A stretch of 37,151 nucleotides of DNA from positions 1 to 37,151 of the forward strand of contig JAFLRP010000156.1 of NCBI GenBank assembly GCA_022511515.1, given 5' to 3'. Source of the DNA: Acutalibacter sp. (GTDB lineage: Bacteria; Bacillota; Clostridia; Oscillospirales; Acutalibacteraceae). Shown piece by piece: positions 16,747 to 21,658 of this stretch. The notes below the pieces were generated by a model. The model was not told the origin of the DNA. It saw only the letters and a list, made by a program, of their open reading frames with translations, and made no database searches. A program made the translations under genes and the position numbers. Every line of letters begins with the position of its first letter. Within the stretch, counting starts at the first letter, position 1.

Positions 16747-18999
16747 ATGAAAAAACTGATTGCACTGTTGCTCGCTCTTGCCATGGTTCTTACCCTGGGC
16801 GCTTGCGGCAACACCGACGCCAACACGAGCTCTGACTCTCAGGTGTCTACTCCCGTAGACAGCAGCACGCCCGAGAGCAAAACGCCCGTCGACGATGAGG
16901 TCGAGCCGACTTCTTATCAAGATCTCGACTGGGACGCCATCGACGCGATGGACTACGAGGATGCTTCTGACGCCATCTACGACCATAACCTCGGCGAGTT
17001 CTACGAGTACTACAAAGTAGCTAAGCAGGAGCTGGACGACATCGACCTGCGTACCGCTCTGATGGCTCTGGCCGAGGCCAAGATGCTGGAATCCGGCGTT
17101 TTCGCCCCCATCTACGGTGACGGCGGTAACTACGCCATCAGCCGTGTGGTACCCCGTACTGCCACCACCACTTCCTGGGGTCTGGACGAGTACAAGTGGT
17201 ACACCACTCTGGTCGCCAATGAGATCCTGACCACCGAAGACCGCAACGCCATCATCGGCATCTGGACTGAGGCTGCTGACGCCGACGCATTCTTCGCCGA
17301 TGCCAGAGCTTATCTGGATGAGCATGGCTACACCCTGACCGACACCTGGAACACCTACAGCGGCTATGACATGGAGACCTGGGATATCATCGCCACCTCC
17401 TACACTTCCGACTCTTACTTCATCGCCTGCACCGTTGGCGGCCTTCTGGAGTATGACGTGAAGAACAACCAGCAGCCCTCTCTGGCTACCAGCTATGAAG
17501 TCAGCGAAGACGGTCTGGTTTACACCTTCCATATCCGCGAGGGCGTGAACTGGGTCGATCAGCAGGGTCGTGTGATCGCTCCTGTGACCGCTAACGACTG
17601 GGTCACCTCCATGATGCACGTTGCCGATAACAACGATGCTCTGGGCTACCTGATGACCTCTACCGACGGTTGCGGCATCAAGAACTACGACGCATACATC
17701 TCCGGTGAGTGCACCTTTGAAGACGTCGGCGTTAAGGCTCTTGACGACTACACCCTGGAGTACACTCTGGAAGCCAAGTTCCCTGCTTTCGATACCATGA
17801 TGGGCTATGGCTGCTTCGCTCCTCTGAACTATGACTTCTACAAGTCTCAGGGCGGCACCTTCGGCGCTGAGGGCGACGAGTACACTCCCGGCAACTACGG
17901 CACCGGCCCCGACACCATCGCCTATTGCGGTCCCTATCTGGTGACCAACTACACTCCCCAGAACATCTGGTCTTTTGCTGCGAACCCCGAGTTCTGGAAT
18001 CCCGATGCCATCAACGTTCACAACGTGAACTTCTACTACAATGACGGCACCGACGTTCTCCGCATTTACAACAGCGTGAAGGATGGTACCTGGGCAGGCG
18101 GCGGCCTGAACGCCAATGCTGTTACCCTGGCTCAGGAAGAAATTCCCGAGGGCGAGACCGAGACCTACTTCGATCTCTACAACTACACTACCACCAACTC
18201 CGCTACCACCTACTGCGCTTGGCTGAACATCAACCGTGCGATCTTCCACGACTTCAACGATGAGACTTCCGGTGTCTCTCCCAAGAGCGAGGATGATGCT
18301 GCCCGTACCCGTTCTGCCATGAACAACCAGCATTTCCGTCTGGCTCTGGCCTACGGCTTTGACCGCGGCTCTTACAATGCTGTCAGCGTTGGCGAGGATC
18401 TGAAGTATGCCGCTCTGAAGAACTCTTATGTCACCGGTAGCTTTGCTCAGATGAAGAACGCTGTGACTGTTGATATCAACGGCACCTCCACCACCTTCCC
18501 TGCCGGTACCTACTACGGCGAGATCATGCAGGCTCAGCTGGATGCTGACGGCTATCCGATCAAGGTGTGGGATCCCACCGCTGACGGCGGCGCCGGTTCC
18601 GGCGACGGTTTCGACGGCTGGTACAATGTGGAGAATGCCCGTGCTGAACTGCAGAAGGCCATCGATGAGCTCGCTCAGGCTGGCATTGAGATCTCCGCTG
18701 AGAATCCGATCTACATCGACTCCTTCTACTTCAAAGGCAGCGAGACCAACACCAACACGAAGCAGGCTTACAAGCAGGGCATTGAGTCCGCTCTCGAGGG
18801 CAAGGTCATTGTTAACCTGGTCGGTTATGATGATTCTACTCAGATGCAGTACGCTTACTATCGTAACTCCACCGGTGCCGAAGCTAACTTCGACATTTCC
18901 CACAGCTCCGGCTGGGGCCCCGACTATGGCGATCCTCAGACCTTCTTGGATACCATCCAGCCCTTCGGCTATATGTGCAAGAACATTGGTATCTATTGA
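16747..18999 (+). CDS. Peptide ABC transporter binding lipoprotein, apparently circularly permuted
   Basis: A 750-residue solute-binding lipoprotein of family 5 (OppA/AmiA type). The signal peptide ends in lipobox LGAC with Cys20, followed by a Ser/Thr/Pro linker. Residues about 79-165 (EFYEYYKVAKQ, LRTALMALAEAKMLESG, then YAISRV and LDEYKWY) resemble the segment that normally closes family-5 proteins. The canonical N-terminal part begins only near residue 205 (ETWDIIATSY, GLLEYD, EVSEDGLVYTFHIREGVNWV). The protein stops 31 residues from the start of SSGWGPDYGDPQTFLD, where relatives such as AmiA continue for over 100 more. This fits a circular permutation. AAGGAGG precedes the ATG. It should deliver peptides to the permeases encoded next. 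Confidence 0.85.
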   Translation: MKKLIALLLALAMVLTLGACGNTDANTSSDSQVSTPVDSSTPESKTPVDDEVEPTSYQDLDWDAIDAMDYEDASDAIYDHNLGEFYEYYKVAKQELDDIDLRTALMALAEAKMLESGVFAPIYGDGGNYAISRVVPRTATTTSWGLDEYKWYTTLVANEILTTEDRNAIIGIWTEAADADAFFADARAYLDEHGYTLTDTWNTYSGYDMETWDIIATSYTSDSYFIACTVGGLLEYDVKNNQQPSLATSYEVSEDGLVYTFHIREGVNWVDQQGRVIAPVTANDWVTSMMHVADNNDALGYLMTSTDGCGIKNYDAYISGECTFEDVGVKALDDYTLEYTLEAKFPAFDTMMGYGCFAPLNYDFYKSQGGTFGAEGDEYTPGNYGTGPDTIAYCGPYLVTNYTPQNIWSFAANPEFWNPDAINVHNVNFYYNDGTDVLRIYNSVKDGTWAGGGLNANAVTLAQEEIPEGETETYFDLYNYTTTNSATTYCAWLNINRAIFHDFNDETSGVSPKSEDDAARTRSAMNNQHFRLALAYGFDRGSYNAVSVGEDLKYAALKNSYVTGSFAQMKNAVTVDINGTSTTFPAGTYYGEIMQAQLDADGYPIKVWDPTADGGAGSGDGFDGWYNVENARAELQKAIDELAQAGIEISAENPIYIDSFYFKGSETNTNTKQAYKQGIESALEGKVIVNLVGYDDSTQMQYAYYRNSTGAEANFDISHSSGWGPDYGDPQTFLDTIQPFGYMCKNIGIY

Positions 19000-19030: not shown

Positions 19031-19064
19031 ACATAAGGGGGTGGGGGTTCCTACCCCCTTATGT
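19031..19064 (+). terminator. Intercistronic hairpin after the binding-protein gene
   Basis: ACATAAGGGGGT pairs with ACCCCCTTATGT (12 bp) around a 10-base loop, followed only by CTTTAAATT. This is a likely partial terminator or 3'-end stabiliser. It would leave more binding-protein mRNA than transporter mRNA, as is usual in such operons. Confidence 0.65.
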
Positions 19065-19094: not shown

Positions 19095-20690
19095 ATGGGA
19101 AAATATATCGTGAAGCGGCTTCTGCACGGTGCGATCTCTGCTATTATTGTGGTGCTGATCGTGATGGTTCTGATCTATTCTCTGTTGGATCGCAGTACTA
19201 TCCTTGCCGGTGACCCGAATTATTCCAAAATGCAGAGCAATGCCCGTATCAGTTATGAAATGAGCCGGTATGAGGCTTTCGGTTATGTGGATTATATCCC
19301 CTATGCCGATTATATCAACGAATTAGCAAGAAACGGTGAGCTCAGCGACGAAGACCGTTCCTCCGTAGCTCTCCTTGGCCGTACCGCGGAAAAGGACAGC
19401 GAGGAAGCGGCCGCGTATGTCAAGAAGTTCACTGAGAAATACCAGTCCCAAGGTTATGAGGTCGTGCGTCTGAAGGCAGACGCTAAAAAGAACGGCCAGA
19501 TCAAAGACGGCGGCCAGGCGGCGCTTTACGCCGTGAAGGACATCCCGCTGTTCAAGCGTGCCATTACCTATTTTACCAAGATGCTGTTCTTTGACAACAT
19601 CCATTACGTGCCGGAGGGTACAGATATCGGAGAGCGGAAACTCTCCTTTACCTGGTACGACCCGGTCTACAATCCTACGGGAACGGAAAAGGTCTTCTCC
19701 CCTGCCATTATCGGAAACGGTACGCTGCACAAGTATCTGCTGTATTTTGATAATGAGTTTCCCTTTATCCATCAGAATTTTGTCACCCTGAATTTGGGTG
19801 AATCCTATACCGTCAACCGGAACGTGGATGTGTTTACCACCATGACCGACAGCCAAGGCTCCTATGTTCTGAAGAACATGATTTACCCGGATACCGGCCT
19901 GACGGAGCAGAGTGCGGATAATCTGCACACCGCTACGTATTCCGAGGGTTCCCGGGAGATCAATGCGGTCTCTATCGAACGGTACAATGACGATTACACA
20001 AAAGTGGGCACCTTTAAGTTTGGTATGTCCAAACTGGGTTTCTCCTTTGTCATCGGCATTATTTCCACAATACTCGCCTATATTTTGGGTCTCCCCATTG
20101 GCCTGATGATGGCGCAGTTGAAAGGCGGCTTCTTTGATAAGATCTGCACTGTGTACATCATCTTCATCATTGCGGTGCCGTCTTTGGCCTACATCTTCCT
20201 GTTCAAATCCATTGGCGGCGCGGTATTCAAGCTGCCAACCCTGTTTGAGGTGGACTCCACAAACTGGCTGATGTATGTGCTGCCGATCATTTCGCTATCG
20301 CTGCCGTCCATTGCAAACCTGATGAAGTGGATGCGCCGCTACATGATCGATCAGCAGAATTCCGACTACGTGAAGTTCGCCCGCTCCGGCGGCCTGTCCG
20401 AGAATGAGATTTTTACCAAGCACATCTGGAAAAACGCCGTAATCCCCATCGTCCACGGCATCCCGGGCAGCGTGATCTTCGCCATGACAGGCGCCATCAT
20501 CACAGAGCGCGTCTACTCCGTCCCCGGCGCCGGCAATCTGCTGACCCAGGCCATCAACAAGTACGATAACGGCGTCATCGTCGGCGTCACGCTGTTCTAC
20601 GCGACGCTCTCCGTGATCTCCATTATCCTGGGCGACGTGCTGATGGCAACGGTAGACCCCAGAATTTCCTTTACTTCAAAGGCGAGGTGA
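19095..20690 (+). CDS. Peptide ABC transporter permease (OppB/AmiC-like) with large outer loop
   Basis: A 531-residue permease of the OppB/DppB family. The first membrane helix (about residues 10-30) is followed by a roughly 270-residue hydrophilic stretch (about 35-305) expected outside the membrane. The five-helix transport core comes next (FGMSKLGFSFVIGIISTILA onward). The coupling EAA region is present (YVKFARSGGLSENEIFTKHI, then WKNAVIPI). GSVIFAMTGAIITERVYSVP and GAGNLL are typical OppB end motifs. Streptococcal AmiC has a comparable insertion, while OppB of enterobacteria is about 306 residues. It ends overlapping the ribosome site of the next gene. Confidence 0.93.
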   Translation: MGKYIVKRLLHGAISAIIVVLIVMVLIYSLLDRSTILAGDPNYSKMQSNARISYEMSRYEAFGYVDYIPYADYINELARNGELSDEDRSSVALLGRTAEKDSEEAAAYVKKFTEKYQSQGYEVVRLKADAKKNGQIKDGGQAALYAVKDIPLFKRAITYFTKMLFFDNIHYVPEGTDIGERKLSFTWYDPVYNPTGTEKVFSPAIIGNGTLHKYLLYFDNEFPFIHQNFVTLNLGESYTVNRNVDVFTTMTDSQGSYVLKNMIYPDTGLTEQSADNLHTATYSEGSREINAVSIERYNDDYTKVGTFKFGMSKLGFSFVIGIISTILAYILGLPIGLMMAQLKGGFFDKICTVYIIFIIAVPSLAYIFLFKSIGGAVFKLPTLFEVDSTNWLMYVLPIISLSLPSIANLMKWMRRYMIDQQNSDYVKFARSGGLSENEIFTKHIWKNAVIPIVHGIPGSVIFAMTGAIITERVYSVPGAGNLLTQAINKYDNGVIVGVTLFYATLSVISIILGDVLMATVDPRISFTSKAR

Positions 20691-20695
20691 GCAGT

Positions 20696-21658
20696 ATGGA
20701 TTTTGAAAAATATGGCATGTCCAACGAGGAGCTGTTCTCGATCATTGACCACAGCGAATTGGAATCGGAAAAAATCACCGCGCCCCGGTATTCCTATTGG
20801 CGCTCGGTGATCCGGGTATTCTTCCGAAACAAAGTCAATATCGTCATTCTGGCTCTTTTGGTTTTTGTGATTTTGTTCGCTTACATTTATCCTGCGCTGG
20901 TTCCGTACGATCCTTACGCAAACCTGCTGGATCCCAATTCCAAGCACCTCTCCCCGGCAAAGGCTTTGCAGTATTTCGGCAACAGCATTCACTGGATCCT
21001 GGGTTCGGGCGCTTCCGGCGAGCCTACCTTTGATGCGATTTGGAACGGTTCTCGCATCTCCCTGGCCCTGGCGTTCCTCTGCGCCGGTATCAATATGACC
21101 GTCGGCGTTATCCTCGGCGCAGTCTGGGGCTTCTCCAAAAAGGTCGACGTGATCATGACCGAAGTCTACAATATTGTCGGCAATGTGCCGTTGATCCTGT
21201 TGATCTCCGTCTTTGCTATGCTGTTCTCCCCCACCTTCTGGACGATGGTATTTGCCCTGACGGTGGTGGGCTGGATCGGAATCGCCTACTTCATCCGCAC
21301 ACAGGTCATTATCATCCGCGACCGGGAGTACAACCTGGCTTCCCGGTGTCTGGGCACCTCCACCATCAAGATTGCCATGAAGAATATCCTGCCCTTTATG
21401 ACCTCCGTCATTGTGACCCTGCTGGCCACGGAGCTTCCCTCCTACATCTCCTATGAAGTGTTTCTGGCCTACATCGGCATGGGCATGAGCGACATGTCCC
21501 TCGGCCGTTTAATCTATGCCGCAGAGGGCGCCATGGTCACACCCGGCTGGGAATTCGAGTTCTGGAGCCCTGTTGCCATTTCGTCCATCATCACTGTCGT
21601 GTTGTACGTCGTCGGTCAGAACCTTGGCGACGCTTCCGACCCGAGAACTCATATGTAA
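20696..21658 (+). CDS. Peptide ABC transporter permease (OppC-like)
   Basis: A 320-residue permease of the OppC/DppC family. It has a cytoplasmic N-terminus, a first membrane helix (KVNIVILALLVFVILFAYIY) and the OppC N-terminal motif VPYDPYANLLDPNSKHLSP. The core follows with WNGSRISLALAFL. The EAA loop is YNLASRCLGTSTIKIAMKNI. The ATG at 20696 is preceded by GAGGTGA. A GTG three codons earlier overlaps the upstream stop but would bury that site. It pairs with the OppB-like protein to form the membrane channel. Confidence 0.93.
   Translation: MDFEKYGMSNEELFSIIDHSELESEKITAPRYSYWRSVIRVFFRNKVNIVILALLVFVILFAYIYPALVPYDPYANLLDPNSKHLSPAKALQYFGNSIHWILGSGASGEPTFDAIWNGSRISLALAFLCAGINMTVGVILGAVWGFSKKVDVIMTEVYNIVGNVPLILLISVFAMLFSPTFWTMVFALTVVGWIGIAYFIRTQVIIIRDREYNLASRCLGTSTIKIAMKNILPFMTSVIVTLLATELPSYISYEVFLAYIGMGMSDMSLGRLIYAAEGAMVTPGWEFEFWSPVAISSIITVVLYVVGQNLGDASDPRTHM

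Follow-up and report, generated by a model that had tools for sequence, protein, structure and literature searches.

Among the oligopeptide-binding lipoproteins of ABC importers, the Ami/Ali proteins of Streptococcus pneumoniae, AmiA, AliB, AliC and AliD (PDB 8a42, 8qlj, 8qlh and 8qlc), are the closest described relatives of the protein considered here. According to the structural report (PMC11192437), AliD consists of Domain I (residues 29-63, 191-296 and 583-617), Domain II (64-190), Domain III (297-582) and a helix named alpha19 (622-652). The free N-terminus of the peptide is held by a Trp/Asp pair (W504/D507 in AmiA, W500/D503 in AliB) and its C-terminus by the backbone nitrogen of AmiA Gly590, at the border of Domains I and III (PMC11192437). 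The authors suggest that the basic face of alpha19 could orient the protein on the membrane. Enteric OppA (PDB 1b05 and others), which shares the SBP_bac_5 fold and has the canonical domain order, is without this helix in the account of the same source.

A tethered ABC binding protein that is circularly permuted in nature has been described in another fold class: TpMglB-2 (Tp0684), a glucose-binding lipoprotein of Treponema pallidum assigned to "Type Ic / Cluster Bc" that also has Gram-positive relatives (PMC4990184). In that protein, strands of the N-terminal side have moved towards the C-terminus and a fourth crossing between the lobes is needed; its authors already suggested that tethering may favor such topologies (PMC4990184). 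A permuted binding protein as such is therefore already known, from the sugar-binding class. For a peptide-binding one, no report was found by title or abstract in the literature searched, a body that leaves aside most subscription papers and all preprints.

The window analyzed here is a stretch of 37,151 nucleotides from Acutalibacter sp. (contig JAFLRP010000156.1 of assembly GCA_022511515.1). Its solute-binding protein (SBP) gene very probably encodes a naturally circularly permuted oligopeptide-binding lipoprotein of the Ami/Ali type (cluster C, SBP_bac_5) that serves an ABC importer. Comparisons with the pneumococcal proteins support a placement of their C-terminal ~110 residues, alpha19 included, between the tether and the normal N-terminus of the window protein. 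The features on which the argument draws are collected in Table 1.

Order of segments in the binding protein

Table 1. Features of the SBP gene, its product and the downstream transporter genes, in window coordinates.
Feature	Residues	Position	Strand	Basis or remark
SBP gene (open reading frame)	750 aa	16747..18999	+	ggagg ahead of start
Signal peptide and lipobox (...LTLGAC), Cys20 predicted to be lipidated	1-20	16747..16806	+	sequence
Low-complexity tether	21-70	16807..16956	+	sequence; little conserved in alignment A1
Moved segment, homologous to Ami/Ali C-terminus (AmiA chain 516-622, AliC 514-617)	71-182	16957..17292	+	direct, profile and rotation tests
Putative counterpart of last part of Domain III (AliD ~536-582)	79-125	16981..17121	+	segment-profile alignment; limits from PMC11192437
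Gly126, aligned with AmiA Gly590	126	17122..17124	+	segment-profile alignment; at least 90% conserved in A1
Putative counterpart of third piece of Domain I (AliD 583-617)	126-158	17122..17220	+	alignment; limits from PMC11192437
Putative counterpart of C-terminal helix alpha19 (AliD 622-652), now internal joint to old N-terminus	163-195	17233..17331	+	alignment
Core, normal mature N-terminus to GWGPDYGDP...NIGIY end (Domains I-a, II, I-b, most of III)	199-750	17341..18996	+	Pfam SBP_bac_5 and profile alignment
Trp723 and Asp726, counterparts of AmiA W504/D507 and AliB W500/D503	723-726	18913..18924	+	core-profile alignment
Stop codon, new C-terminus		18997..18999	+	last core position shared by 30 of 31 permuted proteins
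OppB/AmiC-type permease, long stretch ahead of conserved permease domain	531 aa	19095..20690	+	
OppC/AmiD-type permease		20687..21658	+	
OppD-type ATPase	585 aa	21671..23428	+	
OppF-type ATPase, C-terminal membrane-like tail	439 aa	23431..24750	+	

To a domain search, the window protein looks ordinary: Pfam reports a single SBP_bac_5 domain (PF00496, residues 243-737, 136.2 bits against a cut-off of 32.4, E 2e-39), and neither Pfam (up to E 1) nor NCBIfam (up to E 0.01) assigns a family to the segment in front. Such a result would suit the reading of residues 71-182 as an added domain of unrelated origin, with the C-terminus merely truncated. An earlier note on this DNA had proposed instead that residues ~79-165, behind the lipobox linker, are of the type that normally ends these proteins, that the normal N-terminal part starts only near residue 205, and that a simple truncation would not explain the displaced segment.

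A search of the PDB sequences, in which the pneumococcal Ami-system proteins were the best relatives, bears out this order of parts. Residues 82-175 were aligned with AliC 520-615 and residues 205-749 with AliC 18-506, and the alignment with AmiA likewise fell into two swapped parts. When residues 61-200 (140 aa) were searched alone, the two best matches were again C-termini, those of AliC (520-615, E 7.5e-4) and AmiA (519-611, E 0.0094), followed by weaker matches to AliD (E 0.24) and to an unrelated Cas1 (E 0.61). The identity of the moved segment to its relatives in the PDB is low.

Profiles gave a sharper picture. An alignment of the window protein and 15 relatives of 42-73% identity (A1) was divided into the segment (A2, 112 residues of the window protein, 71-182) and the core (A3), so that each represents 16 of the 31 permuted proteins found in the survey described below. 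Against the PDB, the A2 profile matched AmiA 516-622 (E 8.7e-10), AliC 514-617 (E 4.6e-9), AliB 508-611 (E 5.3e-6) and AliD 511-611 (E 1.4e-5); apart from these four, no chain came below E 0.26, the value of the one other chain listed. The A3 profile matched the same four proteins from near the mature start to about chain position 500, with E-values of 1.8e-99 (AmiA 16-501) to 1.6e-95.

The comparison was also made in the reverse direction, with a profile (A4) of the C-termini of 16 of the 39 unpermuted proteins, whose limits were set by the A2 matches, so that it is not wholly blind to A2. Compared with each other, the A4 and A2 profiles aligned over 96 columns with a probability of 98.6% and an E-value of 1.3e-15. 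In a search of the whole genome of the window, the best A4 match was the N-terminal segment of the window protein (E 3.2e-8), and the runner-up, at E 0.395, lay at the C-terminus of an ordinary SBP. A4 recognized the N-terminal segment in all 31 permuted proteins, the weakest with E 8.7e-5, and gave no match to the same proteins reversed.

Finally, proteins were rotated in 5-residue steps from just before the segment and scored against a full-length profile of 14 unpermuted proteins (625 positions). For all 8 of the 31 permuted proteins sampled, the best single-domain score rose by 30-73 bits when the start lay near that of the core, and the end of the model match moved from 487-498 to 606-610. 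For the window protein the score rose by 37 bits (323 to 360) and the model span grew from 6-487 to 6-606; the matches of the 7 others started at model positions 2-8, and one of them, L049, rose from 433 to 506 bits. None of the 5 controls (2 ordinary SBPs and 3 unpermuted proteins that belong to the profile itself) gained by rotation.

The reverse profile, the reversed-sequence controls and the rotation scan together exclude chance. Since profiles in both directions recover Ami-type C-termini and rotation improves the score, an unrelated domain ahead of a truncated protein is extremely unlikely, and a simple truncation is insufficient. Homology is found on both sides of the cut, in swapped order and with the old termini joined, and after rotation it extends over Domains I to III and alpha19. 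The window protein is thus homologous to the Ami/Ali proteins over nearly its whole length, but it departs from the canonical order of Domains I-II-I-III-I in that it opens with what is usually the last part of Domain III, followed by the third piece of Domain I. Enteric OppA matches only part of the core.

Cut site, peptide pocket and lipid anchor

The cut appears almost free of loss. In AliC, the core match stops at chain position 506 and the segment match begins at 514; the permuted C-terminus lies one position past the former, and the segment profile begins 5 positions before the latter, so that 6 of the 7 AliC residues between the matched parts are accounted for. Because the two boundaries nearly abut, almost nothing was lost at the cut. 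The early stop after SSGWGPDYGDP, to which the earlier note had drawn attention, is shared by the other permuted proteins: 30 of the 31 end exactly at the last core position, and the exception, L113, is cut short where its locus ends.

Residue numbers were transferred to the pneumococcal chains with offsets of 26 for AliB and 21 for AmiA, taken from the ligand residues W500/D503 and W504/D507 in PMC11192437, and with a putative offset of 25 for AliD, derived from the construct length. With the AliD domain limits given there, the cut and the new termini would lie within Domain III (lobe 2), in the stretch that corresponds to AliB residues ~526 to 534, and not in the "lobe I/II region" where the earlier note had put them. 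At the other junction, the alpha19 counterpart is followed directly by the first strand of Domain I, so that the old C- and N-termini would be joined there. The chain would therefore pass from the lipid anchor through a tether of ~50 aa to the end of Domain III, the third piece of Domain I and alpha19, and from there to the start of Domain I, Domain II, the rest of Domain I and the rest of Domain III.

This arrangement would leave the two lobe crossings of the Ami/Ali proteins unchanged and should therefore preserve both the bilobed fold and the peptide pocket. We infer a single bilobed fold that would bind peptides and hand them over to OppB, OppC, OppD and OppF. Alternatively, the N-terminal segment of one molecule might fill in the lobe of another, so that the protein would be an obligate dimer. 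The link through the alpha19 counterpart is indeed short, and AliC has been crystallized as a domain-swapped dimer (PMC11192437); AliC, however, swaps at a different hinge (residues 290-294, according to the same source), and no sequence feature of the window protein demands a dimer, which makes such a swap very unlikely.

In the single bilobed fold, Trp723 and Asp726 would hold the N-terminus of the peptide, and Gly126, in the moved piece, would lie near its C-terminus, so that both contacts described for the pneumococcal proteins are kept in the window protein. The W..D pair is present in 30 of the 30 complete permuted proteins and in 36 of the 37 unpermuted Ami-type proteins (26 of 37 with a stricter pattern).

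The alpha19 counterpart, on the other hand, differs from the helix of the Ami/Ali proteins in two respects. It is internal in the window protein and not C-terminal with a basic exposed face, and its mean net charge is -2.2 in the 31 permuted proteins (-6 in the window protein) vs. +0.6 in the 37 unpermuted Ami-type proteins, a loose contrast, with values of zero or less also in 15 of the 37 unpermuted proteins and above zero in 5 of the 31 permuted ones. The lowered basicity fits an altered orientation on the membrane but is only suggestive of it. A GTG motif occurs in this stretch, which joins the old ends, in 18 of the 31 permuted proteins, the window protein not among them, and in none of the 37 unpermuted ones.

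The position of the cut in Domain III, together with the new order of segments, implies that the lipid anchor should have moved as well. In the Ami/Ali proteins the termini and the anchor are in Domain I; in the window protein, going by the AliD limits, they would be in Domain III. The anchor has thus probably shifted from lobe 1 to lobe 2, so that the protein would be tied to the membrane by its opposite half and the anchor would pull on lobe 2 instead of lobe 1. The lipidation site itself is well conserved, with A19 and C20 invariant in the 16 permuted proteins aligned in A1. The cysteine lies a median of 60 aa from the fold in the permuted proteins (29 of the 31 were measurable) and of 12.5 aa in unpermuted Ami-type proteins. 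A long tether as compensation for the moved anchor is not supported, as the median in 14 ordinary SBPs of the same genus is also as high as 45 aa.

Operon, distribution and ancestry

The SBP gene stands beside genes for two permeases and two ATPases of the Opp/Dpp type: oppB begins 95 bases past its stop codon and is followed by oppC, oppD and oppF. The order SBP-OppB-OppC-OppD-OppF is complete in 21 of the 25 permuted loci besides the window, and the other 4 run off the end of their contig. In six pairs of permuted genes, with segment and core treated apart, dN/dS was 0.035-0.372 in all 12 comparisons, synonymous change being near saturation in one pair. As shown by the conserved operon and these low ratios, the SBP gene is under purifying selection and is a working gene; its product is most likely the binding protein of an oligopeptide importer and would bind peptides. 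A frameshift, an assembly error or a pseudogene might be suspected, given that the window comes from a draft genome of 210 contigs, but the same order recurs in 31 distinct proteins of many genomes, with the same end in 30, and the dN/dS values and the closely following oppB also speak for an intact gene; the probability of an artifact is next to negligible.

Several features of the operon were observed in passing. Between the SBP gene and oppB, a hairpin of 15 pairs (19031-19064; -38.2 kcal/mol and z -4.7 for a 98-base stretch) resembles an attenuator, which would give more SBP than permease. The window OppD contains ~230 residues, apparently charged and helical, inserted before the conserved second half of the ATPase, and is close to the mycoplasma OppD model NF043079, with a score of 726.6 bits (cut-off 740); the Streptococcus-type ATPase of locus L079 (360 aa) is without this insert. 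L079 has the same transporter gene order, with an unpermuted SBP. In the OppF of the window and in 20 of the 21 OppF proteins of other permuted operons, two transmembrane-like stretches follow an HDTG motif; this tail is missing in L079 and in L073, from genome G120, which stands on the permuted clade's deepest branch. To our knowledge, a C-terminal transmembrane-like tail is unusual for such an ATPase.

A survey of relatives, as the earlier note had advised, returned 113 distinct matched proteins, the classification covering matches with a returned locus. The segment stands in front of the core in 31 of them (the window protein included), behind it in 39 (3 with weak E-values of 0.005-0.015 and 2 of them fragments of open reading frames) and on both sides in none; in the remaining 43, no segment match was found at the thresholds used. 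Full-length permuted matches were obtained in 9 of 28 same-genus relatives, in 10 of 398 genomes of the family at E 1e-60 and in 5 of 391 genomes of the class at E 1e-70, the window's own genome being counted in the last two. In a phylum sample of 398 genomes, 3 were matched: that of the window, G469, whose protein is permuted, and G1106, whose copies are unpermuted. G469 holds, besides permuted L051, a distant relative (L058) in which a weak segment match (E 0.015) lies behind the core. Matches were also obtained in 14 of 200 genomes from the class to which G1106 belongs, and the full-length Ami-type proteins in the returned loci were unpermuted. One further family (f51) had matches at E 1e-60 or better in 6 of 150 genomes; the five matched genomes new to the survey were all permuted, and the match in G1462 was in two pieces. 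Six more loci came from metagenome-assembled genomes labeled Oscillospiraceae, Oscillibacter, Lachnospiraceae or Clostridia.

Two candidates for further permuted relatives were rejected. L119 (715 aa), with a core match from residue 198, has a frame that overshoots a normal start near residue 147. The Mycoplasma OppA model NF043077 (MMSYN1_0169) matches parts of the core, but the core starts at position 46 of its 896, which would leave little room for the segment in front. Searched in 299 genomes of the phylum, with no mycoplasma identified among them, this model gave nothing past the family cut-off, and its two matches (L058, weakly, and L059) have the segment behind the core.

Two trees, both of which rest on ~330 residues from the start of the core, place the permuted proteins in one clade. 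In the first (80 proteins, rows shorter than 500 aa omitted), the 26 permuted proteins had a support of 100/98 and were sister to Streptococcus-type Ami proteins (99/88), other unpermuted Ami-type proteins lying outside. In the second (70 proteins; 13 named unpermuted proteins, all but 15 of the 43 other SBPs, and rows shorter than 540 aa omitted), all 31 formed a clade (98/94) with the same sister relation (96/59), which was starred in the first tree but not in this one. Since the permuted clade is nested beside unpermuted Ami-type proteins, the unpermuted order looks ancestral, and a single origin suffices for the sampled set. L049 (G120) and L113 (G1462) form the deepest branch of this clade, and their segments have the two highest scores against A4 among the permuted proteins (66.1 and 55.3 bits, respectively); they would be a good place to seek traces of the rearrangement.

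The most likely origin would be a tandem duplication involving two AmiA-type genes, with in-frame fusion and subsequent loss of both outer parts, a route that would account for the join and leave the signal peptide in place. A related proposal is that pieces of two genes were fused, a C-terminal fragment of one AmiA-type paralogue having come to stand before a truncated second one, so that no single protein was ever permuted. Unpermuted Ami-type genes are in fact sometimes adjacent, with one such pair on contig C11 of G1337 and another on C1 of G1245, and mean column identity is a little lower in the moved segment (60%) than in the core (64%). The nearly seamless junctions, and the one order and one clade of all 31 proteins, argue against such a fusion, which is hardly distinct from the duplication route and which we regard as unlikely. 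Neither a tandem fusion nor a protein with both copies of the segment was found among the 113 matched proteins.

Relation to TpMglB-2 and significance

TpMglB-2 and the window protein are both naturally permuted, tethered binding proteins of ABC importers, but they differ in fold class, ligand and direction of the rearrangement. As described in PMC4990184, TpMglB-2 belongs to the Type I, cluster B sugar-binding fold, whereas the significant matches of the window protein's core are of the SBP_bac_5 type. In addition, the window protein has its C-terminal part moved to the front, and its lobe crossings would stay at two, unlike the outcome in TpMglB-2.

The permutation described here can be traced to one clade, in which it is conserved and linked to an operon. 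It also has a practical consequence, as standard domain searches hide such cases behind a plain SBP_bac_5 label, and it would be wrong to take the protein for a truncated one that begins with an unknown domain. Permuted and ordinary Ami-type proteins provide a ready-made pair with which to ask whether the position of the anchor affects the delivery of peptides. It is possible, if doubtful, that the permuted proteins represent a subclass of cluster C that was fixed once in Clostridia because re-anchoring from lobe 1 to lobe 2 alters the docking of the open and closed forms on OppB/OppC. If so, they would be, with TpMglB-2, the second independent case of a permuted tethered binding protein, which would suggest that anchoring geometry is under selection.
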